Assembly (NCBI RefSeq): GCF_011057715.1
Contig: NZ_LNGH01000002.1
Location: 124,001-188,000, forward strand
Direction: 5' to 3'
Length of the DNA: 64,000 bases
Source of the DNA: Marinitoga sp. 38H-ov
GTDB taxonomy: Bacteria > Thermotogota > Thermotogae > Petrotogales > Petrotogaceae
Part shown: positions 6,383-22,165 of the stretch, in pieces
Layout: every line of letters starts with the position of its first letter
How positions within the stretch are numbered: position 1 is the stretch's first letter
The notes under the pieces: model-generated
Seen by the model: only the letters and a program-made list of their open reading frames with translations
Told to the model about the DNA's origin: nothing
Database searches by the model: none
Position numbers and translations under genes: made by a program

Positions 6383-7837
6383 TCATTTTATATCTAATTG
6401 CTTAAAATAATTTAAATTCACTTTTTTTGGTAATATTCCTGATTTTTTACCTCTCAAAGGAATTTCATCTTCATTAATATTCAATGTTTCAGAAATTACT
6501 TTTTTAATTCTGGGGATACAGAACTCTCCTTGGCAAAAGCCCATTGTAGCTCTTGTTCTTCTTTTTATAGCATCTATAGATTTTATTGGAATTCCCCTTT
6601 TTAGTGCATCTATTATCTCTTTTTTGCTAACCATTTCACATCTACAAATAATTTGTTCATCAGAATTTAATTCTAACATATTATTTACTTCTTTATATGT
6701 CAGATCTTTTTTTATAATTATAGGTTTTCTATATGGATTAAAATCATTTTTTTCAATTAACTTTAATCCTGATTTTTTTAATATATTCAAAACCATTTTA
6801 GCAATTGCTGGTGAAGATGTCAACCCTGGAGATTCAATTCCTGCAACATTGATAAATCTTTCTTTAGATTCTTCTATTATAAAATCTCCTGTTGAAGGCG
6901 TGGGTCTAATACCAGAAAATGAAGTTAATACCTTTTTTAAGTCTATATTAGGAACAGATAGTTTTGCAGTTCTAATAATATATTTTAATGTTTCTATATC
7001 TGTATTTAAATCATATTTAGAACTTTCTTGTGCATCAGGTCCAATCATTAAATTCCCATGATATGTAGGAGTTACTAAAATACCTTTTCCTTTTTCTGTA
7101 GGAACTTGAAAAATTACTTTGTTTATTATTTCTCCGTATCCCTTATGAAAAATAATATATTGTCCTTTTCTTGGAATTATATGAAAATTTTTTATCCCAA
7201 CCATTTCCGATATCTTATCGCTAAATACTCCAGCCGCATTTATTATATACTTAGTTTCATACGAATTTTGATTAGTTATAACTATATAATAATCATTTTT
7301 CTCTTCAATTTTTATTACTTCATTTTCTAATTTTATTTCTACTCCATTATTCACTGCATTCTCCGCTAAAGCTATCGTCATTTCATACGGAGAAGTTATT
7401 CCCACATCTTTTGCTAATAAAGCTACTTTTACATCTTTATTTATATTTGGTTCAATTTTTAATATTTCATCACCATATAATATTTTCATTTCATTTTCGT
7501 TTACTCCATTATTTAAACCATTTTTATATAATTCAATTAATGTCTTTTCATCATTTTCATCAAATCCTATTACTAAAGCCCCTGTTCTTTTGAACCCAAA
7601 ATTGAGTTCTTTATTTAATTTATCATACATTCTATTTCCTTCAAAACACAATTTACCTTTTAACGTACCATATTTAGCAGCATATCCTCCATGAACAATA
7701 CCACTATTTGCTTTAGATGCGCCATTACTTACATCATCAGTTTTTTCTAACATTAAAATTTTTAAACTATATTTTGATAATTCACGTGCAATTGTACTAC
7801 CAACAACACCTGCACCTATTATAATAATATCATACAT
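6383..7837 (-). CDS. FAD-dependent oxidoreductase with C-terminal BFD-like [2Fe-2S] domain (GlpA/DAO family)
   Basis: I start at the ATG ending at 7837, which follows a GGAGGGG site; an upstream in-frame start would overlap that site. The 484-residue protein opens with a Rossmann FAD motif (IIIGAGVVGSTIAREL) and a DAO fold with 'GIVHGGYAAKYGTLKGKL' and the conserved 'GIRPTPSTGDFII'. The last 100 residues form a BFD-like domain with CRC and CQGEFC cysteine pairs. The family includes anaerobic glycerol-3-phosphate dehydrogenases and related hydroxy-acid dehydrogenases. Substrate is uncertain because no glycerol genes are adjacent. It is the first gene after the nqr operon terminator. Confidence 0.82.
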   Translation of the reverse strand: MYDIIIIGAGVVGSTIARELSKYSLKILMLEKTDDVSNGASKANSGIVHGGYAAKYGTLKGKLCFEGNRMYDKLNKELNFGFKRTGALVIGFDENDEKTLIELYKNGLNNGVNENEMKILYGDEILKIEPNINKDVKVALLAKDVGITSPYEMTIALAENAVNNGVEIKLENEVIKIEEKNDYYIVITNQNSYETKYIINAAGVFSDKISEMVGIKNFHIIPRKGQYIIFHKGYGEIINKVIFQVPTEKGKGILVTPTYHGNLMIGPDAQESSKYDLNTDIETLKYIIRTAKLSVPNIDLKKVLTSFSGIRPTPSTGDFIIEESKERFINVAGIESPGLTSSPAIAKMVLNILKKSGLKLIEKNDFNPYRKPIIIKKDLTYKEVNNMLELNSDEQIICRCEMVSKKEIIDALKRGIPIKSIDAIKRRTRATMGFCQGEFCIPRIKKVISETLNINEDEIPLRGKKSGILPKKVNLNYFKQLDIK

Positions 7838-12355: not shown

Positions 12356-13456
12356 TTAAAAATTCTCTATAATTTTATCCACATATTCATTAGTTGATAA
12401 GGCTTTAGGAGATATATCAATTGTTGCATACCCATCTAAAATTGTTTTTTCAATTGAATTCTTAATCAAATTAGCGACTTCATTAAATCCGATATATTCA
12501 AACATCATAACTCCAGATAAAATCAATGAAGTTGGATTGGCCATTTCAGGATTTTTTATTCCTGGAGCTGTACCATGTGTTGGTTCAAATAATGCAATTT
12601 TATCTCCTATATTAGCTCCTGGAACAAGTCCAACACCACCAATTTGAGCAGATGCTGCATCAGACAAATAATCTCCATTTAGATTGGTTGTTATTAATAT
12701 GTCAAAATTTGAAGGATTTAACAATAATTGTTGAAACATATTATCTGCAATAATATCATTTATTTCAAGATGATTTATTTGATTATTAAATCCATTAAAA
12801 ACTTCATAGCACCATTTTCTAAAGTTTCCTTCTGTATATTTCATTATATTCCCTTTATGTACTATAGTTATTTTTTTTCTATTTTTCTTTATAGCATACT
12901 CAATAGCTTTTCTCATAAGTCTTTTAGTTTTATATTCGCTAATTGGTTTTATTCCAATTGATGCTTTGTTTAAATTTGTTCCAAATTTTTTATTCAAAAT
13001 TCTTATTAATTCATTTGATTCTTCAGAATTTTCTTCCCATTCAATACCACAATATACATCTTCTGTATTTTCCCTAAATATAATAATGTCAATTTTTTCT
13101 GGATTTTTTACAGGTGAATTTATACCTTTTATATATTTAACGGGTCTTATACATGCATATAAGTCCAATTCTTGTCTTAAAGCAACATTTAAGCTTCTAT
13201 ATCCGCTTCCAACTTGTGTTTCAAGAGGACCCTTAATCCCTATTTTAAATTCTTTCAATAATTTTATTGTTTCTTCCGGCAAAGGAGTTCCAAATTTTTC
13301 TATTGCTTTTTTACCTGCATATATTTCTTTCCAAATAATTTTCTTTTTACCTTTATATATAAAATCCATTGCTGAATTCCAAACTTTCATTGCTGATTTC
13401 ATAATATATGGACCTATCCCATCTCCTTCTATATATAAAATTTGAATTTTTTCCAT
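12356..13456 (-). CDS. icd: Isocitrate dehydrogenase, decarboxylating
   Basis: The 366-residue protein has the isocitrate/isopropylmalate dehydrogenase fold. The substrate motif 'GYRSLNVALRQELDLYACIRPVKY' (about 83-107) with phosphate-binding Ser and Asn and the Arg series is specific to isocitrate dehydrogenase. Metal and active-site residues appear in 'DIIIFRENTEDVYCGIEW' and near 'ADAASAQIGG', and the cofactor loop is 'FEPTHGTAPG'. It makes 2-oxoglutarate, the precursor of glutamate, and is the last gene of an operon that starts with citrate synthase. NADP use is likely but I did not establish it. Confidence 0.9.
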   Translation of the reverse strand: MEKIQILYIEGDGIGPYIMKSAMKVWNSAMDFIYKGKKKIIWKEIYAGKKAIEKFGTPLPEETIKLLKEFKIGIKGPLETQVGSGYRSLNVALRQELDLYACIRPVKYIKGINSPVKNPEKIDIIIFRENTEDVYCGIEWEENSEESNELIRILNKKFGTNLNKASIGIKPISEYKTKRLMRKAIEYAIKKNRKKITIVHKGNIMKYTEGNFRKWCYEVFNGFNNQINHLEINDIIADNMFQQLLLNPSNFDILITTNLNGDYLSDAASAQIGGVGLVPGANIGDKIALFEPTHGTAPGIKNPEMANPTSLILSGVMMFEYIGFNEVANLIKNSIEKTILDGYATIDISPKALSTNEYVDKIIENF

Positions 13457-13467
13457 TTTACCACCCC

Positions 13468-14499
13468 TTAAAATAATACTAAATTATCAGCATGTATAAA
13501 TTCTTCATAATCATTATCTATACTTTTTTTTCCAATAATATTTTTCCCTTCTAAAAAAGAGTAATTGCTAATTCCTTTTGCTATCAATTTATTATTATAA
13601 TAAACATTTACTGAATCCCCTTTTAAAAATTTGCCTTCTATTTTTTCAATACCAATAGGCAATAAACTTTTTCTTTCAAGAATAGCTTCTTTTGCACCTT
13701 TGTTTATAAATAATTTTCCTTTACTTTTAGATAAATATGCTATCCAGGCTTTTTTATTTTTTATTTTTTTATGTGGCAGAAAAATCGTCCCAATATTTTC
13801 TCCATTTATAAATTTTTCAATATTTTCTAAATTTTTACCATTACAAATACAAGTTTTTACTCCTGAATTTGAGGCTATTTTTCCAGCCTCTATTTTTGAA
13901 TTTATGCCTCCTGTTCCTAAAGATGTATTTTTTATTTTTAATAAATCAATTGCATTATTATAATTTTCTATTATTTTTTTATCCTTATCATATATCCCAT
14001 CAACAGAAGTTAATATTATCAAAGAATCAGCTCCCCATCCAATAGCAAAATAAGCTGAAAGAATATCATTATCTCCAAATTTAATTTCTTCAACAGACAC
14101 TGTATCATTCTCATTAATTATAGGTATTATTTTTAATTGATTTAAACCTATTAAAGTATTTTTCAAATTAATAAATCTAGACCTATTTGAAAAATCATCT
14201 CTTGTTAATAAAACCTGTGCAACTTTTTTATTATAAAAATTAAAAGCTTGTTCATATATTTTCATTAATTGCACTTGACCAATTGCACACAATGCCTGTT
14301 TTTGAGATAAACTTTTAATTGGATTTAATTTTAAATATTTTAAACCAACTGCTTTTGCACCAGAAGATACTAGAACAACTTTTTTATTATTATCTATTAA
14401 TCTTGATACAACTGAACTTAATTTAAAAACAAAAGATTCATCGATTTTATCTTCTTTAATTAATATGTTACTCCCTATTTTTATTACAATCTTTTCCAT
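13468..14499 (-). CDS. proB: Glutamate 5-kinase
   Basis: The 343-residue protein has an amino-acid kinase domain: 'KIGSNILI' at the N-terminus, 'VSSGAKAVGL' about residue 45, 'INENDTVSVEEIKFGDND' about 135 and 'GTGGINSKIEAGKIA' about 205. A PUA domain fills the C-terminal 80 residues. It phosphorylates glutamate in the first step of proline synthesis. It lies 2 bases downstream of proA and upstream of icd, so the proline branch and glutamate supply are co-transcribed. Confidence 0.93.
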   Translation of the reverse strand: MEKIVIKIGSNILIKEDKIDESFVFKLSSVVSRLIDNNKKVVLVSSGAKAVGLKYLKLNPIKSLSQKQALCAIGQVQLMKIYEQAFNFYNKKVAQVLLTRDDFSNRSRFINLKNTLIGLNQLKIIPIINENDTVSVEEIKFGDNDILSAYFAIGWGADSLIILTSVDGIYDKDKKIIENYNNAIDLLKIKNTSLGTGGINSKIEAGKIASNSGVKTCICNGKNLENIEKFINGENIGTIFLPHKKIKNKKAWIAYLSKSKGKLFINKGAKEAILERKSLLPIGIEKIEGKFLKGDSVNVYYNNKLIAKGISNYSFLEGKNIIGKKSIDNDYEEFIHADNLVLF

Positions 14500-14501
14500 T
14501 T

Positions 14502-15746
14502 TTAATCCCTCACATTATAATTACCTTGAATTACATATTTATAGGTAGTTAATTCCCTTAACCCTATTGGACCTCTTGCATGTATTTTTTGAGTACTAAT
14601 ACCCATTTCTGCTCCCATTCCAAATTCTCCACCATCTGTAAATCTAGTAGATGCATTAATGTATACTGTTGCAGAATCTATTTCATTAATAAATTTCATA
14701 GCATTAAAATAATTTTCCGTTAAAATAGATTCTGAATGACCTGTTGAATATTTTTTTATATGATTAATTGCATCATTAACATCTTCAACTACCTTTATTG
14801 AAAGAATTAAATCTAAATATTCTGTTTCCCAATCTTCTTCTATAGCTTTCTTCACATTAATAATATTTAGTACTTTTTCGCATCCTCTAATTTCTACATT
14901 TTTATCTTCCAATCTTTTTTTTAATATAGGAAGAATTTCCTCTGCAATATTTTTATGAATCAATACAGTTTCAACGGTATTGCATGTTCCTGGCCTCTGA
15001 GTTTTTGAATTAACAATAATTTCAGCAGATTTTTCTATATTAGCACTTTCATCTACATATATATGACAAACACCAACACCTGTTTCTAAAACAGGGACTG
15101 TAGAATTTTCTATAACAAATTCAATGAGACCTTTCCCCCCCCTAGGAATAATCAAATCCAAATAATTATTTAATTTAAGCATTTCATACACTAAATCTTT
15201 ATTTGTATTTTCCAGTAATTCTACTGCATTATCTGGTATCTCAGATTTTTTTAATGCTTCTTTTATAGATTTTACTATAGCCTTATTAGAATTAATTGCA
15301 TCAGATCCTCCTCTTAACATAATGGAATTCCCTGATTTCAAGGCTAATATTGTTGCTTCTAAGGTTACATTAGGTCTAGATTCATATATTATCCCTATTA
15401 CTCCTAGAGGAACTCTTATTTTGCTTATTCTCAAACCATCTTCTCTTAAAAAAGAGTCATATATTTCACCAACTGGATCATTTAAGTTCATTACTGTTTT
15501 ACAAGCATCTATCATTCCATTTATCCTTTTTTCATTTAAAACTAATCTATCTATTAAAGATTTCTTTATTCCTTTTTTTCTAGCATTTTCAATATCTAAT
15601 ATATTCACTTTTAATATACTATCTATATTTTTTTCAATTGTTTTGGATATTTCTAATATTGCATTATTTTTTTGTTTAGCGTTTAAGTTTTTCAAAATTT
15701 CAAAACTTTTTTTTAATTTCTTCGCTTTTACAAGTAATTCATTCAT
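14502..15746 (-). CDS. proA: Glutamate-5-semialdehyde dehydrogenase (gamma-glutamyl phosphate reductase)
   Basis: The 414-residue protein is full length. It shows the aldehyde-dehydrogenase fold with 'GVIGIIYESRPNVT' near residue 117, the catalytic cysteine in 'TQRPGTCNTVET' and the C-terminal 'FTDGGEFGMGAEMGISTQK' and 'ARGPIGLRELTTYKY' signatures. It reduces glutamyl-5-phosphate to the semialdehyde, the second step of proline synthesis. It begins 9 bases after proC. Confidence 0.95.
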   Translation of the reverse strand: MNELLVKAKKLKKSFEILKNLNAKQKNNAILEISKTIEKNIDSILKVNILDIENARKKGIKKSLIDRLVLNEKRINGMIDACKTVMNLNDPVGEIYDSFLREDGLRISKIRVPLGVIGIIYESRPNVTLEATILALKSGNSIMLRGGSDAINSNKAIVKSIKEALKKSEIPDNAVELLENTNKDLVYEMLKLNNYLDLIIPRGGKGLIEFVIENSTVPVLETGVGVCHIYVDESANIEKSAEIIVNSKTQRPGTCNTVETVLIHKNIAEEILPILKKRLEDKNVEIRGCEKVLNIINVKKAIEEDWETEYLDLILSIKVVEDVNDAINHIKKYSTGHSESILTENYFNAMKFINEIDSATVYINASTRFTDGGEFGMGAEMGISTQKIHARGPIGLRELTTYKYVIQGNYNVRD

Positions 15747-15755
15747 TTTATCACC

Positions 15756-16535
15756 TCAAAATTTATTATTCTTTAAATACGCTTCATATAGTGACTTCAT
15801 AATCGCTCCCTTTACACTTTTCTGCTCTAATTCATATAATCCTTTAATTGTAACACCTCCAGGTGAAGATACCCTATATTTTAATTGAGATAATTCAATA
15901 TTTTCTTTTTTTATAAATTCTATAGTTCCTTCAAAAGTTTTTAAAATAATTTCTTTTGCATCTTCTACATTGAATCCAATATTTATTGCTCCTTCAATAT
16001 AGCTTTCGAGTATATAAGCAGCGAATGCTGGACCACTACTATTTAAAATAGTAAAAGCATCAAATTTTTTTTCATCTATTTCCATAATTTCTCCTAATGG
16101 TCTTAGCATAGATATAACCTCTTCCTTTACGTCACTTTTTATTGAATTATTAAATGTTATAGCAGTTATACCTTTTCCTATTTTTGAAATAATAGTTGGC
16201 ATAATTCTTATTACATTTTTTTTATTAGATTTTTTTAATATTTCATTAAGACTTTTCCCAGCTGCAGTACTAATAATTACTGCATTATCATTATCTATTT
16301 TTGATATTTCATTTAATACATCATCCATATCTTTTGGTTTTACAGTTACAAAAATATATTTGGAATTTGAATAAATATCCTCAATATTTTCTCCTATTTT
16401 AACTCTACATTTTTTTTCATATTTTTTTATTTTTTCTCTATTTTTATCTATTATATAAAAATCATGTTCTTCATTTTGTAATATTTCTAATAACATACTT
16501 CCTATATTCCCAATACCAATTATTCCTAATTTCAT
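15756..16535 (-). CDS. proC: Pyrroline-5-carboxylate reductase
   Basis: I start at the ATG ending at 16535 (GGAG 8 bases upstream); a longer frame would overlap the preceding gene. The 259-residue protein has the NAD(P) motif 'GIIGIGNIGSML', the 'IRIMPTIISKIGKGITAI' segment and the C-terminal 'LKYRVSSPGGVTIKGLYELE' signature that forms the proline/P5C site. It completes proline synthesis. Its place between the aconitase small subunit and proA makes the operon run without a break from citrate to proline. Confidence 0.93.
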   Translation of the reverse strand: MKLGIIGIGNIGSMLLEILQNEEHDFYIIDKNREKIKKYEKKCRVKIGENIEDIYSNSKYIFVTVKPKDMDDVLNEISKIDNDNAVIISTAAGKSLNEILKKSNKKNVIRIMPTIISKIGKGITAITFNNSIKSDVKEEVISMLRPLGEIMEIDEKKFDAFTILNSSGPAFAAYILESYIEGAINIGFNVEDAKEIILKTFEGTIEFIKKENIELSQLKYRVSSPGGVTIKGLYELEQKSVKGAIMKSLYEAYLKNNKF

Positions 16536-16539
16536 ATTT

Positions 16540-17046
16540 TCACACTCCATAACCATTATATTTTTTTACATATTTATCTATTCCGCCAATTTCTAATAAT
16601 GCATTAATAAAATCCGGAAATGGTATAAATGTATATTTCTTATTTTGAGTTAAATTTAATACAATCCCTTTTTCAGTATCTATTTCTAACAAATCTTTTT
16701 CATTTATTTCATCTATTCCATTATCTTTTAACTCTATAACTGGTAACCCTATATTTATTGAGTTTCTATAAAAAATTCTTGCAAAAGATTTAGCAATTAT
16801 ACAGGAAACACCTGCAACTTTAATTATTCTAGGTGCATGTTCTCTTGAAGATCCTAAACCAAAGTTTTTTCCTCCAACAATAATGTCACCTTTCTCTACA
16901 TTTTTAGGAAAATCTTCCCTTGAATCTTCTAATACATGTTTTGCTAATTCTGGAAGATTAGATCTTAAATGAAAATATCTACCTGGTGCTATATGATCAG
17001 TAGATATATTTTCACCAAATTTCCATACTTTACCTTTTAAAATCAT
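16540..17046 (-). CDS. Aconitase/isopropylmalate-isomerase-family small subunit (LeuD type)
   Basis: The 168-residue swivel domain has the conserved 'GGKNFGLGSSREHAP' anion-binding loop and 'AKSFARIFYRNSINIGLP'. Family members pair with a large Fe-S subunit to isomerise citrate, isopropylmalate or homocitrate; specificity is set by the loop after 'PGRYFH', here LRSN. Because it lies between citrate synthase and icd and no leuA or leuB is near, I infer that it is the aconitase of the glutamate route. It overlaps the large-subunit gene by 4 bases. Confidence 0.85.
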   Translation of the reverse strand: MILKGKVWKFGENISTDHIAPGRYFHLRSNLPELAKHVLEDSREDFPKNVEKGDIIVGGKNFGLGSSREHAPRIIKVAGVSCIIAKSFARIFYRNSINIGLPVIELKDNGIDEINEKDLLEIDTEKGIVLNLTQNKKYTFIPFPDFINALLEIGGIDKYVKKYNGYGV

Positions 17047-18293
17047 TTCAACACCTCCCTTGGATCTGTAATATATCCAGTTATAGCAGTAGCAGCTGCT
17101 GTTGCTGGTGATGCTAAATAGATTTCACTATTTGGATTCCCAGCTCTCCCTTTGAAATTCCTATTTTGTGTAGATAATAATTTTTCTCCATCAGCAAGTA
17201 CTCCTGCATGAACTCCAACACATGGTCCACAACCAGGTGGAAGTATTGTTGCCCCAGAATTAACAAATATATCTATTAATCCTTCTCTAAGTGCTTTTAA
17301 ATAAATATGTTTAGATGCTGGAGCTATTAATAATCTTACTTCTTCTGCCTTTTTTTTATTTTTTAATATTGATGCAACTATTCTTAAATCTTCCATTCTT
17401 CCATTTGTACATGTACCTATATATACTTGGTCTATTTTTATATTTTTCACTTCACTAATATTCTTCGTGTTATCTACAGTATGAGGAAATGAAACTTGAG
17501 GTTCTATTTTCGATATATCTATTTCTATTACCTTTTCATATATTGCATCTTTATCAGGAAATATTTCTTTAAAATCTTTTATTCTATCATAAGTTTTTAA
17601 AAATTCTTTTGTTTTTTCATCTGTTGGAAACAAACCAACCTTAGCTCCTGCTTCTACAGCCATATTTGATATTGTTAATCTTGATTCCATACTTAAATAC
17701 TTTAATGCATCTCCAGAAAATTCTAATGCTTTATATGTAGCTCCATCTGATCCAATTAATCCTATTAAATATAATATTATATCTTTAGCATACACACCTT
17801 TTTCCAAATACCCATTTAGTACAATATTATAGCTTTCTGGAACTTTAATCCAAACTTTTCCTAATCCGTATGCTAAAGCGACATCAGTTGAACCCATACC
17901 TGTAGCAAATGCTCCTAATGCACCAGATGTGCATGAATGAGAATCAGCTCCTACTATAACATCTCCTGGTCTTGCATATTTTTCTACTACTATTTGATGG
18001 GATATTCCCTCCCCAACATCAAATATTTTTGCTGATGTTTTTTTGCAAAAATCCCTTAATTTAATTTGTGTATTTGATAATTCTTTTCTTGGGCTAGGAG
18101 AAGCATGATCTATAAATACTAAAGATTTTGTTTTTACATTATTAAAATCTAATTTTTCAAATTGGTCTATAGTTAAAGGTCCTGTCCCATCTTGTACAAA
18201 TGCTAAATCAACATTTACAGTAATAATTTCTCCAGGTATTACATCTTTTTTTGTATGAAAACTTAATATTTTTTCTACCATTGTTTTACCCAT
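17043..18293 (-). CDS. Aconitase/isopropylmalate-isomerase-family large subunit (LeuC type)
   Basis: The 416-residue protein is the size of a two-subunit LeuC/HacA dehydratase rather than a one-chain aconitase (about 650-890). The [4Fe-4S] cysteines appear in 'VYIGTCTNGRMEDL' and 'LPPGCGPCVGVHAG', and substrate residues in 'GADSHSCTSGALGAFATGMGSTD'. The start ATG ends at 18293 after a GGAGGT site and overlaps the citrate synthase gene by 8 bases. Context argues for aconitase activity (citrate to isocitrate), though isopropylmalate or homocitrate specificity cannot be ruled out from sequence alone. Confidence 0.87.
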   Translation of the reverse strand: MGKTMVEKILSFHTKKDVIPGEIITVNVDLAFVQDGTGPLTIDQFEKLDFNNVKTKSLVFIDHASPSPRKELSNTQIKLRDFCKKTSAKIFDVGEGISHQIVVEKYARPGDVIVGADSHSCTSGALGAFATGMGSTDVALAYGLGKVWIKVPESYNIVLNGYLEKGVYAKDIILYLIGLIGSDGATYKALEFSGDALKYLSMESRLTISNMAVEAGAKVGLFPTDEKTKEFLKTYDRIKDFKEIFPDKDAIYEKVIEIDISKIEPQVSFPHTVDNTKNISEVKNIKIDQVYIGTCTNGRMEDLRIVASILKNKKKAEEVRLLIAPASKHIYLKALREGLIDIFVNSGATILPPGCGPCVGVHAGVLADGEKLLSTQNRNFKGRAGNPNSEIYLASPATAAATAITGYITDPREVLK

Positions 18294-19407
18294 TAATTTT
18301 TACCTCCTTTATTTTTTTATAATCTAAGTTTTTTGGACCATTATATATTGATCTAGGTCTAAAAATTCTATTGTTTTTACAATATTCCATCGCATGCGCT
18401 GTCCAACCTACAATTCTAGCCATTGCAAAAATTGTTGTAAAAAAATCTTTAGGAATGTTAAAGTAGTTATATAATATACCTGAATAAAAATCTACGTTAG
18501 GATATATCTTCTTGCCTTTAAAATTTTTTAATACTACTTCTTCTACTTTTAAAGCTATTTTATAATATCTTATTTCTTCTTTGATCTCATTTAGCCATTT
18601 TTTCAATATTTTTGCTCTTGGATCAAAAGTTTTATATATTCTATGCCCAAATCCCATTATTTTTTTTCTTTTTAATATTAAATCATTAACATATTTTTCA
18701 ACATAATCAATTGTTCTTATTTCTTCTAACATCATTAATACTTTCTCATTTGCACCCCCATGTAATTGACCTTTCAATGTGCCTAATGCCGTTGTTATAA
18801 TTGAATAAACATCTGATAATGTAGAAGCTGTCACAGTAGATGCAAATGTTGACGCATTCATTCCTTGCTCCATATGAAGTATTAAACTTTTATCAAACAA
18901 TTCTTTTTCCTGTGGAATATCTCCAAACATCATATATAGAAAATTTTCTGAATGTTTTAAATCTTCATTAGGGTGAATAAGTGAGAAATTATTTTTTATT
19001 CTATACCAATATGCAATAATTGTTGGGATTTTCGCAGTTAAATTTATCGCATCTTCAAACGTAGAATTATTATCACTAGAATACATTCCTAATACTGAAA
19101 CTACGCTTCTCAAGACTTCCATTGGATGTGCATTTTTAGGAAATAGATACATTAATCGAATTATATTTTTTGGCAATTCTCTTTTTTTAGTTAACATCGC
19201 ATTAATAAAATCTAATTCATTTTCATTAGGCAAATTACCAAACCATATTAGATACGCAGTTTCTTCAAAATTTGAATATTCAACTAAATCTTCAATACTA
19301 AAGCCTCTATATATTAACTCCCCCTTTTCACCATCAACATAAGAAATAGAACTTATAGCAACTGCAACTCCCTCGAGTCCATGTTTTACTTCGCATTTCG
19401 TTTCCAT
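18286..19407 (-). CDS. Citrate synthase
   Basis: I start at the ATG ending at 19407, after GGGGGTG; a longer in-frame start would run into the terminator stem. The 373-residue protein is a short (type II) citrate synthase with the catalytic histidines in 'GQLHGGANEKVL' and 'GFGHRIYK' and the Asp in 'NVDFYSG'. It condenses acetyl-CoA and oxaloacetate, starting the route to glutamate and proline encoded by the rest of the operon. It is the first structural gene after the leader-peptide attenuator, so the attenuator would control the whole set. Confidence 0.92.
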   Translation of the reverse strand: METKCEVKHGLEGVAVAISSISYVDGEKGELIYRGFSIEDLVEYSNFEETAYLIWFGNLPNENELDFINAMLTKKRELPKNIIRLMYLFPKNAHPMEVLRSVVSVLGMYSSDNNSTFEDAINLTAKIPTIIAYWYRIKNNFSLIHPNEDLKHSENFLYMMFGDIPQEKELFDKSLILHMEQGMNASTFASTVTASTLSDVYSIITTALGTLKGQLHGGANEKVLMMLEEIRTIDYVEKYVNDLILKRKKIMGFGHRIYKTFDPRAKILKKWLNEIKEEIRYYKIALKVEEVVLKNFKGKKIYPNVDFYSGILYNYFNIPKDFFTTIFAMARIVGWTAHAMEYCKNNRIFRPRSIYNGPKNLDYKKIKEVKING

Positions 19408-19432
19408 AATTTCACCCCCAAATTTAAAATAA

Positions 19433-19534
19433 AAAGGCCACACTTAATAAGTGTGGCCTTTGATTCCCTTAAGATTTATAACAATGGAAATATACCGAAC
19501 TTAAGGTGTTTCAAAGACCTCACCTTTTGTTCGG
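19433..19534 (-). promoter_or_regulatory. Leader-peptide attenuator of the citrate-to-proline operon
   Basis: Read on the minus strand, three helices compete. (a) An anti-antiterminator hairpin pairs 19529-19534 with 19495-19500 and 19521-19526 with 19503-19508. (b) An antiterminator pairs 19511-19524 with 19450-19463 (11 Watson-Crick, 2 G-U, 1 mismatch). (c) A terminator pairs 19449-19461 with 19433-19445, 13 bp with a 3-base loop, then TTTTTATTTT. Helix b uses one strand of each of the others. The leader ORF runs through helix a, so ribosome position can decide the outcome, as in trp- or his-type attenuation. Confidence 0.75.
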
Positions 19535-19592
19535 GTTCATTATTTAATGTATTATTAACTTTTATATTGGATATTTTTATAATGTATTTCAT
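19476..19592 (-). CDS. Leader peptide (38 residues) of the citrate-to-proline operon
   Basis: The ORF runs from an ATG ending at 19592 to a TAA at 19476-19478, with a strong TAGGAGG site 7 bases upstream. Residues 19-22 are Glu-Pro-Glu-Gln, encoded at 19527-19538 directly before the region that switches between helices. A ribosome slowed there would cover the anti-antiterminator and free the antiterminator. Glutamate, glutamine and proline are the amino acids whose supply the operon controls. The peptide has no recognisable function of its own. That it is translated is inferred from the site and the fit with the RNA structure. Confidence 0.65.
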   Translation of the reverse strand: MKYIIKISNIKVNNTLNNEPEQKVRSLKHLKFGIFPLL

Positions 19593-19617
19593 TTTTATTC
19601 CTCCTAATTTTTTTTTG

Positions 19618-19647
19618 ATTTTATCATGATATATTATTATTTGTCAA
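19618..19647 (-). promoter_or_regulatory. Promoter of the citrate-to-proline operon
   Basis: On the minus strand a perfect -35 TTGACA (19642-19647) is followed, 18 bases later, by -10 TAAAAT (19618-19623). Transcription would start about 15-20 bases before the leader peptide's ribosome binding site. Confidence 0.7.
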
Positions 19648-19697: not shown

Positions 19698-20463
19698 TCA
19701 ATTATATTCTATAATCCATTTTTGTTTTAATTTTTCTAATGTTCCATCAGTTTTAAAACATTCAATTACTGTATTTAACCATAATAATAAATCAATATCT
19801 TCTTTTTTTACAGCTATACCTAAATTTTCTTTTGTTAATAATTCTGGAACCATCTTTATTGAATTATATTTTTTTACAAGAGTTCCAAAATATAAATCAT
19901 CAAAAACTATTGCATCTGCTTTATTTATTATTATTTGATATGCAGCATTATCAACCGTTTCAAATGTTAGTATTTTTGCCTTTGGAAATTTTTTTCGAGC
20001 AACAATTTCTCCCGTAGATCCCAATTGAACAGCTATTTTAGCCTTTTCTCCCATATTTATTATATCTTTTATTGTAAGATTATTATATTTTTTGGAATTA
20101 TACATTAAGGCTTGTCCAGTTTGAAAATAGGAATTTGTAAAGTTAACTCTTAAAGCTCTTTCAGGAGTAATTGTCATTGCCGCTAATATAACATCAAATT
20201 TATTTGTCATCAATGCAGGTATTATTCCATCCCAATTTGTTATTACATATTCAACCCTCACTCCCAACAACTCACCTATTAATTCAGCAAATTCAATATC
20301 ATGCCCTATTCTATTTCCTTTTTCATCAATACCATAAAACGGTGCATATGCCGGATCTTGACCAATTAATAATACTCCTCGTTTTTTGAATTTCTTCTAT
20401 TTTCCCACCAAAAATAGCTAAACTTATTACCAAAATAACAAATACTAATGCTAACTTTTTCAT
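19698..20463 (-). pseudogene. Polar amino-acid ABC transporter substrate-binding protein, with a frameshift after the signal peptide
   Basis: The natural ATG ends at 20463 behind a GGAGG site and encodes a signal peptide (MKKLALVFVILVISLAIFGG). The frame breaks at an A6 run (20382-20387 on the plus strand). Removing one base there joins it to the complete binding domain, giving about 254 residues, the normal length. The second frame shows the family pattern (IGQDPAYAPFY, GHDIEFAELIGELLGV, then DGIIPALMTNKFDVI). Nothing else is damaged, so a sequencing error, a slippage site or a very recent mutation all fit. The protein should deliver a polar amino acid to the permease encoded upstream. Confidence 0.85.
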
Positions 20464-20516
20464 AATCTTACCTCCTTTTTATTATATAAACATAATATAA
20501 TTTTCTTAATTACACA

Positions 20517-21212
20517 CTATGCAAATTCATATTTTAACTTATTATTAAAAAATAATTCAGGATCAACATTTTCTAGAATTTTTCCATCTTTCATAAATAT
20601 TATTCTATCTCCTGCTTTCTTAGCAAAATTTACTTCATGAGTAACTATAACCATAGTTTTTCCAAGTCTTGCTAAAAACATCATTACTTCTGTTACTTCA
20701 TGAACTAAACTAGGATCTAAAGAGGATGTTGGTTCATCAAATAAAATAATTTCTGGATCCATCGCTAAAGCTCTTGCTATTCCCGCTCTTTGTTGTTGCC
20801 CACCAGATAAATGTGAAGGATAATTATATGCCTTATCTTTTAATTGAACTTTTTCTAAAACTTCAAAAGAAATATTATAAGCTTCTTCTTTTTTTATTTT
20901 TTTTGTCCTTATTAATCCCAGAGCTATATTCTCTATAATTTTCAAATGTGGAAAAAGATTATGTTGTTGAAATACAAACCCAATTTTTTGAACTAATATA
21001 TTTCTAGAATAATTCAAAATATTTTTTCCATCTAAATTAATTAATCCACTTTGATATTCTTCTAATCCAGCTATACACCTTAAAAGTGTTGATTTCCCAG
21101 ATCCCGAAGGGCCCATAATAATTAACACTTCTCCTTTTAAAATTGATAAATTTACACCTTTTAGAACATTTAAATCTCCAAAACTTTTTTTTAAATCAAA
21201 TATTTTTATCAT
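20517..21212 (-). CDS. Polar amino-acid ABC transporter ATP-binding protein
   Basis: The 231-residue ATPase has Walker A (GPSGSGKST), Q-loop (FVFQQHNLFPH), signature (LSGGQQQRAGIARAL), Walker B (IILFDEPTSSLD) and H-switch (VTHEVNFAKKAGDRI). The 'QHNLFPH' and 'LDP' patterns are those of the GlnQ/HisP group. It is shorter than usual by about 10 residues at the C-terminus. It lies between the permease gene (4-base overlap) and the binding-protein gene in one operon under the attenuator at 21985-22069. Confidence 0.92.
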   Translation of the reverse strand: MIKIFDLKKSFGDLNVLKGVNLSILKGEVLIIMGPSGSGKSTLLRCIAGLEEYQSGLINLDGKNILNYSRNILVQKIGFVFQQHNLFPHLKIIENIALGLIRTKKIKKEEAYNISFEVLEKVQLKDKAYNYPSHLSGGQQQRAGIARALAMDPEIILFDEPTSSLDPSLVHEVTEVMMFLARLGKTMVIVTHEVNFAKKAGDRIIFMKDGKILENVDPELFFNNKLKYEFA

Positions 21213-21949
21213 ATAATAGAATACCTCCTTTCAAAATATTTTCCTAAAACTTGCAAAAATGCATTTACTGAAAAATACAGTATAGCTACGGTAATATATG
21301 ATTCAAAAGAGGCAAATGATGATGTTGCAATCTGTCTTCCAACCATCGTTAATTCCTGTAAAGCTATTACTGATGCTAACGAACTATCTTTTACTAAACT
21401 AATAAACTGTCCTGTCAATGAAGGTAAAGTCATCCTAAACGCTTGAGGCAATAATATGTCTGTATATAAATAAAAATCATTTAATCCAATTGTTTTAGCA
21501 GCTTCAATTTGTCCCTTTGAAATAGATTCTATACCACCTCTAATTATCTCTGATATATAAGCTCCTTCAAACAAAGAAAGAGAAATTATTGAACCAATAA
21601 TTGCACTTATATCCATTATTGAACCCATACCATAATATACTATTAAAATAATTACTAATAATGGAATATTTCTAAAAATAGTTGTATATATATTTGAAAT
21701 TTCTTTCAAAATAATATTTTTAGTAGTTTTTATTACACCAAATATTATTCCTATTATCATTGCAAAAAACATAGAAAAACATGAAATAATTAATGTCATA
21801 TAAAATCCTTTTAAATATAATAAAATATAATTAAATGGCACTTTTGTCCAATTAAAAGGATATGATTTTGATATTTCAATATATAATAAACATACTAAAA
21901 AAAAGAAAAGAAAAGATGAGATTGCCTTTTGTAAAAAATTGTTTTTCAT
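21209..21949 (-). CDS. Polar amino-acid ABC transporter permease
   Basis: I start at the ATG ending at 21949 after an AAGGAG site, since a longer frame would begin inside the terminator stem. The 246-residue protein has five or six membrane helices and the EAA loop 'ESISKGQIEAAKTIGLNDFYLYTDILLPQAF' typical of HisM/GlnP permeases. It forms the membrane channel of the transporter. It is the first structural gene after the second leader-peptide attenuator, whose leader is rich in Arg and His codons, hinting at a basic amino acid as substrate. Confidence 0.9.
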   Translation of the reverse strand: MKNNFLQKAISSFLFFFLVCLLYIEISKSYPFNWTKVPFNYILLYLKGFYMTLIISCFSMFFAMIIGIIFGVIKTTKNIILKEISNIYTTIFRNIPLLVIILIVYYGMGSIMDISAIIGSIISLSLFEGAYISEIIRGGIESISKGQIEAAKTIGLNDFYLYTDILLPQAFRMTLPSLTGQFISLVKDSSLASVIALQELTMVGRQIATSSFASFESYITVAILYFSVNAFLQVLGKYFERRYSII

Positions 21950-21984
21950 ATAAATTCTCCTTTCTAGAATTTTATAAATAAAAA

Positions 21985-22069
21985 AGGCCACACTTAAAAA
22001 AAGTGTGGCCTAGGATTCCTCGAGATAAAATACGACAACTCAAGGTGTTAGCCTTAGGCCACACCTTGA
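21985..22069 (-). promoter_or_regulatory. Leader-peptide attenuator of the amino-acid transporter operon
   Basis: Read on the minus strand: the anti-antiterminator pairs 22061-22069 with 22040-22048 (9 bp perfect, 12-base loop). The antiterminator pairs 22055-22064 with 22003-22012 (10 bp perfect, extendable past a one-base bulge). The terminator pairs 22001-22011 with 21985-21995 (11 bp, 5-base loop) followed by TTTTTATTTATA. The antiterminator shares strands with both other helices. The leader stop codon lies in the second arm of the first hairpin, so translation to the end favours termination and a stall upstream favours readthrough. Confidence 0.78.
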
Positions 22070-22111
22070 ATGATGTCTTATATTAATATTTAATGAATAT
22101 ATTTTTTTCAT
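22040..22111 (-). CDS. Leader peptide (23 residues, Arg/His-rich) of the amino-acid transporter operon
   Basis: The ORF runs from an ATG ending at 22111 to a TGA at 22040-22042, behind a GGAGGAG site. Residues 12-16 are Arg-His-His-Ser-Arg, followed by Cys-Gly-Leu-Arg. There are three Arg and two His codons in nine, directly before the switching helices. A ribosome waiting for charged tRNA-His or tRNA-Arg would mask the first hairpin arm and allow the antiterminator. This suggests the transporter takes up histidine or arginine. Translation and the sensed amino acid are inferred. Confidence 0.68.
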   Translation of the reverse strand: MKKIYSLNINIRHHSRCGLRLTP

Positions 22112-22136
22112 AATATCTCCTCCAAAATTTTTCACG

Positions 22137-22165
22137 ATTATACCACAATATTTTTTCTTTGTCAA
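22137..22165 (-). promoter_or_regulatory. Consensus promoter of the amino-acid transporter operon
   Basis: On the minus strand TTGACA (22160-22165) and TATAAT (22137-22142) are separated by 17 bases, with an extended TGG just before the -10. It is a perfect sigma-70-type promoter and begins one base after the stop codon of the GH1-like gene. High basal initiation fits control by attenuation downstream. Confidence 0.88.

Follow-up and report, generated by a model that had tools for sequence, protein, structure and literature searches.

Results

The citrate synthase and proline operon and its leader

The window, that is, the whole 64,000-nucleotide stretch of DNA from the heat-loving genus Marinitoga that was analysed, carries on its minus strand a seven-gene operon that begins with citrate synthase and continues with both subunits of an aconitase/isopropylmalate dehydratase-family enzyme, three proline biosynthesis genes and an isocitrate dehydrogenase-family gene (Table 1). 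We infer the exact substrate of the aconitase/isopropylmalate dehydratase-family enzyme from its context. With this gene content the products of the operon are proline and 2-oxoglutarate, from which the carbon skeleton of glutamate is derived. The citrate synthase gene most likely starts at the ATG at 19407, which places the start codon 3′ of an intrinsic terminator.

Table 1. Positions of the leader elements, the paralogous leader and the associated genes in the window
Feature	Positions	Strand	Details
Sigma-70-type promoter	19618-19647	minus	TTGACA (19647-19642), 18 bp, TAAAAT (19623-19618)
Shine-Dalgarno sequence of leader ORF	19600-19606	minus	TAGGAGG
Leader ORF, 38 codons	19476-19592	minus	MKYIIKISNIKVNNTLNNEPEQKVRSLKHLKFGIFPLL; ATG 19592, stop 19478-19476
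ACATTAAATAAT block (Thr-Leu-Asn-Asn)	19539-19550	minus	directly before control codons
Control codons	19527-19538	minus	Glu-Pro-Glu-Gln
1:2 hairpin (anti-antiterminator)	19495-19534	minus	CCGAAC/GTTCGG and AAGGTG/CACCTT
2:3 antiterminator	19451-19523	minus	outer helix 19523-19511/19463-19451; inner helix 19506-19500/19473-19467
3:4 intrinsic terminator	19425-19461	minus	13-bp stem (19461-19433) and U-run
Citrate synthase, first operon gene	18286-19407	minus	TIGR01800 above cut-off
Aconitase/isopropylmalate dehydratase-family large and small subunits	16540-18293	minus	subfamily cut-offs met
proC, proA, proB (proline biosynthesis)	13468-16556	minus	
Isocitrate dehydrogenase-family gene, last in operon	12356-13456	minus	
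Paralogous attenuator	21980-22165	minus	2.5 kb from citrate leader; promoter 22165-22137, Shine-Dalgarno 22123-22119, terminator 22011-21985
Paralogous leader ORF	22111-22040	minus	MKKIYSLNINIRHHSRCGLRLTP; His-His codons 22075-22070
Amino-acid ABC transporter (permease, ATPase, solute-binding protein) behind His-codon leader	19698-21949	minus	

The promoter of the leader matches the consensus at 11 of 12 positions. Together with the Shine-Dalgarno sequence, the 38-codon ORF, its Glu-Pro-Glu-Gln codons and the terminator, it was found exactly where the original prediction had placed it on the minus strand. The control codons sit in strand 1, at the 5′ arm of the 1:2 hairpin. The outer helix of the antiterminator pairs at 12 of 13 positions (13 of 14 had been claimed), and a second, inner helix of 7 bp, formed by CCTTAAG and the complementary CTTAAGG, had not been listed in the original description. 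The outer helix arises because 19523-19511 can pair with the 5′ arm of the terminator. Formation of the two-helix antiterminator is thus mutually exclusive with the terminator, and it is likewise mutually exclusive with the 1:2 hairpin. The leader RNA folds with z = −4.66 relative to shuffled sequences, and in each of seven Marinitoga genomes the complementarity of the outer antiterminator helix was equalled in 0 of 400 shuffles.

Conservation in Marinitoga

Promoter, leader ORF, antiterminator, terminator and operon were all kept in the seven Marinitoga genomes searched. In each of them the leader is present in a single copy ahead of citrate synthase, and the gene order citS-acnA-acnD-proC-proA-proB-icd is identical. 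The TTGAC and the −10 element of the promoter are invariant or nearly so. A Shine-Dalgarno sequence matching at least five of six positions precedes the leader ATG in all seven, and this ATG is always in frame with the control codons, while the N-terminal codons vary in both sequence and number. An in-frame combination of Shine-Dalgarno sequence, ATG and open frame arose in only 0.1–1.3% of shuffles per genome. In the G002 leader, a longer loop makes up for an insertion ahead of the stem and so brings the reading frame back, and in the same genome the leader is kept before citrate synthase even though the adjacent transporter genes are absent. The pattern that the original prediction had named as refuting, a terminator kept in relatives without the leader ORF or the antiterminator pairing, was seen in none of the seven. 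The presence of the ORF, the control codons, both alternative helices, the terminator and the operon in seven of seven genomes supports reading the leader as an attenuator.

Glu-Pro-Glu-Gln, which had been proposed as the control sequence, holds for the window and is not the pattern of the genus: the consensus, found in the other six genomes, is Gln-Pro-Glu-Pro. The prediction that the operon yields precursors of the control-codon amino acids agrees with the family matches of the genes for 2-oxoglutarate and proline. Some control codons change synonymously and leave the protein reading unchanged (Gln CAA/CAG; second Pro CCC/CCA/CCT). The first Pro codon is CCC in all seven leaders, yet only 4.5% of the prolines encoded in the complete genome G004 are specified by CCC. 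The outer stem of the 1:2 hairpin requires CCGAAC, which overlaps the first Pro and Glu codons, so the conservation of Pro-Glu is partly structural. A single Pro codon is present in the leader of the window, versus runs of two to four control codons in the leaders with Trp, Tyr or His codons described below. In all seven genomes GlnRS scored below and GatB above cut-off. Where GlnRS is missing and the GatB route is present, Gln-tRNA is made from Glu-tRNA; with no recognizable GlnRS and with GatB present, all of the control codons would report on the supply of the glutamate family.

When the RNA model was run on 103 genomes of the class, convincing homologs were confined to Marinitoga. The sub-threshold matches inspected outside the genus were terminators, except for a separate trp leader in genome G014, and the plasmid collection contained no match. 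Petrotogaceae relatives of other genera are without this citrate synthase, and no such leader was found in their proB regions. A Petrotogaceae cluster of aconitase/LeuCD-like, LeuB/Icd-like and ProB-like genes (L288-L292) represents an operon variant that has neither citrate synthase nor leader.

Paralogous leaders with histidine codons and covariation of the antiterminator

A covariance model built from the seven citrate leaders was used to search for further copies, and these were found in every Marinitoga genome. The copy in the window, which the original prediction does not list, lies ahead of an amino-acid ABC transporter and has the chassis of the citrate leader (AAGGTGTGGCC, CACCTTGAG, CTCGAGG and the AGGCCACAC terminator). 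More generally, the His-His(-His) leaders of the genus share the chassis AAGGTGTGG...CACCTTrAG, CTYrAGG and AGGCCACAC terminator with the citrate leaders, and differ from them in having His codons, a stop codon inside strand 2 and a transporter as target. His-His occupies the position homologous to Pro-Glu in all seven genomes (His-Arg in one), and three genomes have a third copy, with His-His-His, before a gene for a solute-binding protein. The N-terminal part of the His leader in G002 (NLINTLN) still resembles the citrate leaders, which identifies the copies as paralogs. Relative to the chassis, the citrate class and the His class are read in different frames, each uniformly in its own, which fits selection of the codons rather than of one peptide.

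The His-His codons suggest that the transporter carries histidine. The family matches of the transporter are by themselves ambiguous, with a Lys/Arg/Orn-type binding protein and a GlnQ-type ATPase. The window gene for the solute-binding protein contains a one-base frameshift in an A-run at about 20375-20385 on the minus strand, and for this reason its listed ORF begins late; homologs in relatives are intact, and the frameshift may be a sequencing error or real.

The seven citrate leaders alone gave modest covariation, since their helices are nearly constant, and the paralogs supplied the test. In the combined set of 17 leaders (7 citrate and 10 His), pairing was retained at 166 of 170 positions of the outer antiterminator helix and 118 of 119 of the inner helix. 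At inner pair 5, the seven citrate leaders have A-U and the ten His leaders G-C, and outer pairs 8 and 10 vary on both sides. When partners were permuted among leaders, the observed pairing was matched in 0 of 10,000 permutations for each helix; since the permutation leaves relatedness in, this is strong evidence of covariation and not evidence of independent events. One His copy also has a compensatory change in the inner stem of the 1:2 hairpin (AAAGTG/CACTTT). The check that the original prediction had proposed, covariation of the helices and leader codons in related genomes, thus came out in its favor: the antiterminator covaries, and the control codons are kept or, in the paralogs, swapped to His.

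It is conceivable, if rather unlikely, that the leaders are copies of a modular chassis that was duplicated and re-targeted by swapping control codons, with one copy acting as a sensor of the glutamate family that reads Gln, Pro and Glu codons jointly, Gln-tRNA being made from Glu-tRNA, and in which the invariant ACAUUAAAUAAU adds a second input.

A model of ribosome-mediated attenuation

The leader is very probably a classical ribosome-mediated attenuator that senses the charging of Pro and Glu (and possibly Gln) tRNAs. Transcription and translation of the leader, ribosome stalling and the response to starvation are steps that we infer from the sequence, and the amino acids sensed are most likely Pro and Glu. 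The proposed events are as follows. RNA polymerase would initiate near 19.61 kb, and translation of the leader ORF by a ribosome would follow; the leader has a 1:2 hairpin, where a pause of the polymerase could keep it in step with the ribosome. A shortage of Pro-tRNA, Glu-tRNA or, in the relatives, Gln-tRNA would stall the ribosome on the (Q/E)-P-E-(P/Q) codons, where it would mask the 5′ arm of this hairpin and leave strand 2 free to pair with strand 3. The resulting antiterminator would preclude the terminator, and the 2-oxoglutarate/proline operon would be transcribed. With charged tRNAs the ribosome would reach the stop codon, where it would block 2:3 pairing; the terminator would then form and transcription would end. 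In the citrate leaders the stop codon either follows strand 2 immediately or stands immediately ahead of strand 3; from these places, as from inside strand 2 in the His leaders, a terminating ribosome would block 2:3 pairing.

The effect of ribosome position was simulated with an equilibrium folding model in which the ribosome masked RNA as far as 16 nt from its P site. For several leaders, the predicted terminator probability fell when the A site was at the control codons or 0–2 codons before them, and the terminator was predicted to be restored in all leaders modelled when the ribosome was at the stop codon. The best window in the model thus fell 0–2 codons upstream of these codons. Leaders with Trp, Tyr or His codons behaved alike in this model, and the loss of the terminator was weak for G005 and G006. 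Since ribosome-free RNA favors the antiterminator until strand 4 has been made, shut-off without translation must rest on the order of folding.

Other leaders of the same type

The 2.40-Mb genome G004 contains 403 terminators, 16 of which have a short ORF preceded by a Shine-Dalgarno sequence and are followed by a gene. Strong antiterminator complementarity was found at four of the 403, in the citrate/proline, His-His-His, Tyr-rich and Trp-Trp-Trp leaders, by a scan that is not exhaustive, the filter having overlooked the genome's own His-His copy. The His-His-His leader precedes a gene for a transporter protein. The Tyr leader, with Tyr-Cys-Tyr-Tyr-Tyr (NYCYYYAGEH) and a terminator, lies before DAHP synthase and aroA (L237, about 6600-6790); the third gene behind it is probably a prephenate dehydrogenase, with no family match at the cut-off used. 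The Trp-Trp-Trp leader and its terminator precede a TrpB-like gene (L138, about 2690-2900), and the exact WWW motif is present in four of the seven Marinitoga genomes. In G014, which belongs to a related genus, a Trp-Trp-Trp leader lies before trpE and trpG, the latter assigned by eye (L131, about 1000-1300). This match between control codons and gene products suggests, at the level of sequence, that switches of this type are in general use in the lineage.

Constraint on the TLNN block and alternative explanations

The four codons of ACATTAAATAAT are identical in nucleotides in all seven citrate leaders and lie outside every helix; the remaining N-terminal part of the leader is under no such constraint. 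Among invariant residues of the seven operon proteins, 4.9% of Thr, 3.7% of Leu and 31% of Asn have one codon in all genomes, and only one of 470 operon windows of four conserved residues has four invariant codons. From the codon conservation of the operon, the expected chance of the invariance seen in the block is about 1.8 × 10−4. Third positions are thus conserved as well, which places the constraint at the nucleotide level, beyond the peptide. Attenuation does not require such conservation, and ACATTAAATAAT may serve as an RNA signal or as a pausing element, or may reflect codon-level tuning.

The invariance of TLNN in seven genomes amid otherwise variable N-terminal residues is also what would be expected if a conserved peptide, TLNN(Q/E)PE, arrested the ribosome in the manner of TnaC or SecM, in response to a small molecule or to EF-P or the state of translation rather than to uncharged tRNA. 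We downgraded this explanation to a slim chance because the constraint extends to the nucleotides and because the His paralogs carry a different peptide on the same RNA chassis; the window, moreover, has E-P-E-Q in place of Q-P-E-P. Strict conservation of ACATTAAATAAT outside all three helices could instead reflect a metabolite- or protein-binding RNA, a riboswitch or the target of an antiterminator protein, that works through hairpin 1:2 and the ACAUUAAAUAAU strand, with an ORF that is incidental or only aids the accessibility of the switch. In such an RNA, a variable hairpin loop and internal loop, as seen among the leaders, would not be expected, nor would retention of Shine-Dalgarno sequence, start codon and frame in seven of seven genomes, with codons that become His before a transporter. 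Neither leader reached the gathering threshold of any Rfam family, no riboswitch model was matched, and the Rfam scan of the window gave no T-box. We give the binding-RNA explanation an even slimmer chance. Two weak sub-threshold matches to Rfam sRNAs were judged to be due to chance or to resemblance between terminators.

The simplest arrangement, a terminator that is a constitutive attenuator or a leftover, next to a short ORF with no sensing role, is the most improbable of the three. It does not account for an antiterminator that covaries, for an ORF frame and control codons that are kept in all relatives, or for codons that fit the function of the operon in four leader types. Ribosome-mediated attenuation in response to tRNA charging therefore remains the preferred explanation.

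Discussion

Leader-peptide attenuation has so far been regarded as chiefly proteobacterial, with few amino acids covered. Here a single genus of Thermotogota appears to use it for a glutamate/proline operon, for a transporter that probably carries histidine and, it seems, also for genes of aromatic amino acids. The mechanism is already known; the lineage and the codon specificity appear to be undescribed. The original prediction that this attenuator had not been described holds insofar as the open-access literature searched contains no record of a Gln/Pro/Glu leader. A bioinformatic survey by Lopatovskaya and colleagues in 2010 reportedly may list Thermotogae, so that priority within the phylum is uncertain. 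That survey is among the references of PMC4833913. The two homologous leaders constitute a natural experiment, in which a shared RNA switch is combined with other codons and another target. The mixed Q/E-P-E codons make it testable whether a single attenuator integrates the charging of several tRNAs that belong to one metabolic family, and the His codons provide a testable prediction of substrate for an ambiguous ABC transporter.

T-box leader RNAs likewise sense uncharged tRNA and steer amino-acid operons through the choice between terminator and antiterminator; unlike the Marinitoga leader, they have no leader ORF. The nearest example involving proline is mgtP of the Salmonella mgtCBR operon, in which Pro codons of a leader ORF sense low charging of Pro-tRNA by transcription attenuation (PMC3641672). 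Sensing by Pro codons is shared with the Marinitoga leader; however, mgtP is unrelated in sequence, lies in tandem with an ATP-sensing ORF and does not precede an operon for proline or glutamate biosynthesis. According to a comparative survey, Rfam then contained attenuator families for His, Leu, Thr and Trp, with Ile/Val and Phe attenuators also known, and a gamma-proteobacterial origin of such families was proposed as possible (PMC3766115).

The trp, his, leu and thr attenuators of enterobacteria are built in the same way as the Marinitoga leader, with a leader ORF whose control codons lie in the 5′ arm of the 1:2 hairpin, a 2:3 antiterminator, a 3:4 terminator and a stop codon placed to block 2:3 pairing. 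Enterobacterial leaders contain a run of one amino acid, whereas the Marinitoga leader has a mixed Gln/Glu-Pro-Glu-Pro/Gln sequence, and it is found in Thermotogota, on an operon that joins the path from citrate to 2-oxoglutarate with proline biosynthesis.
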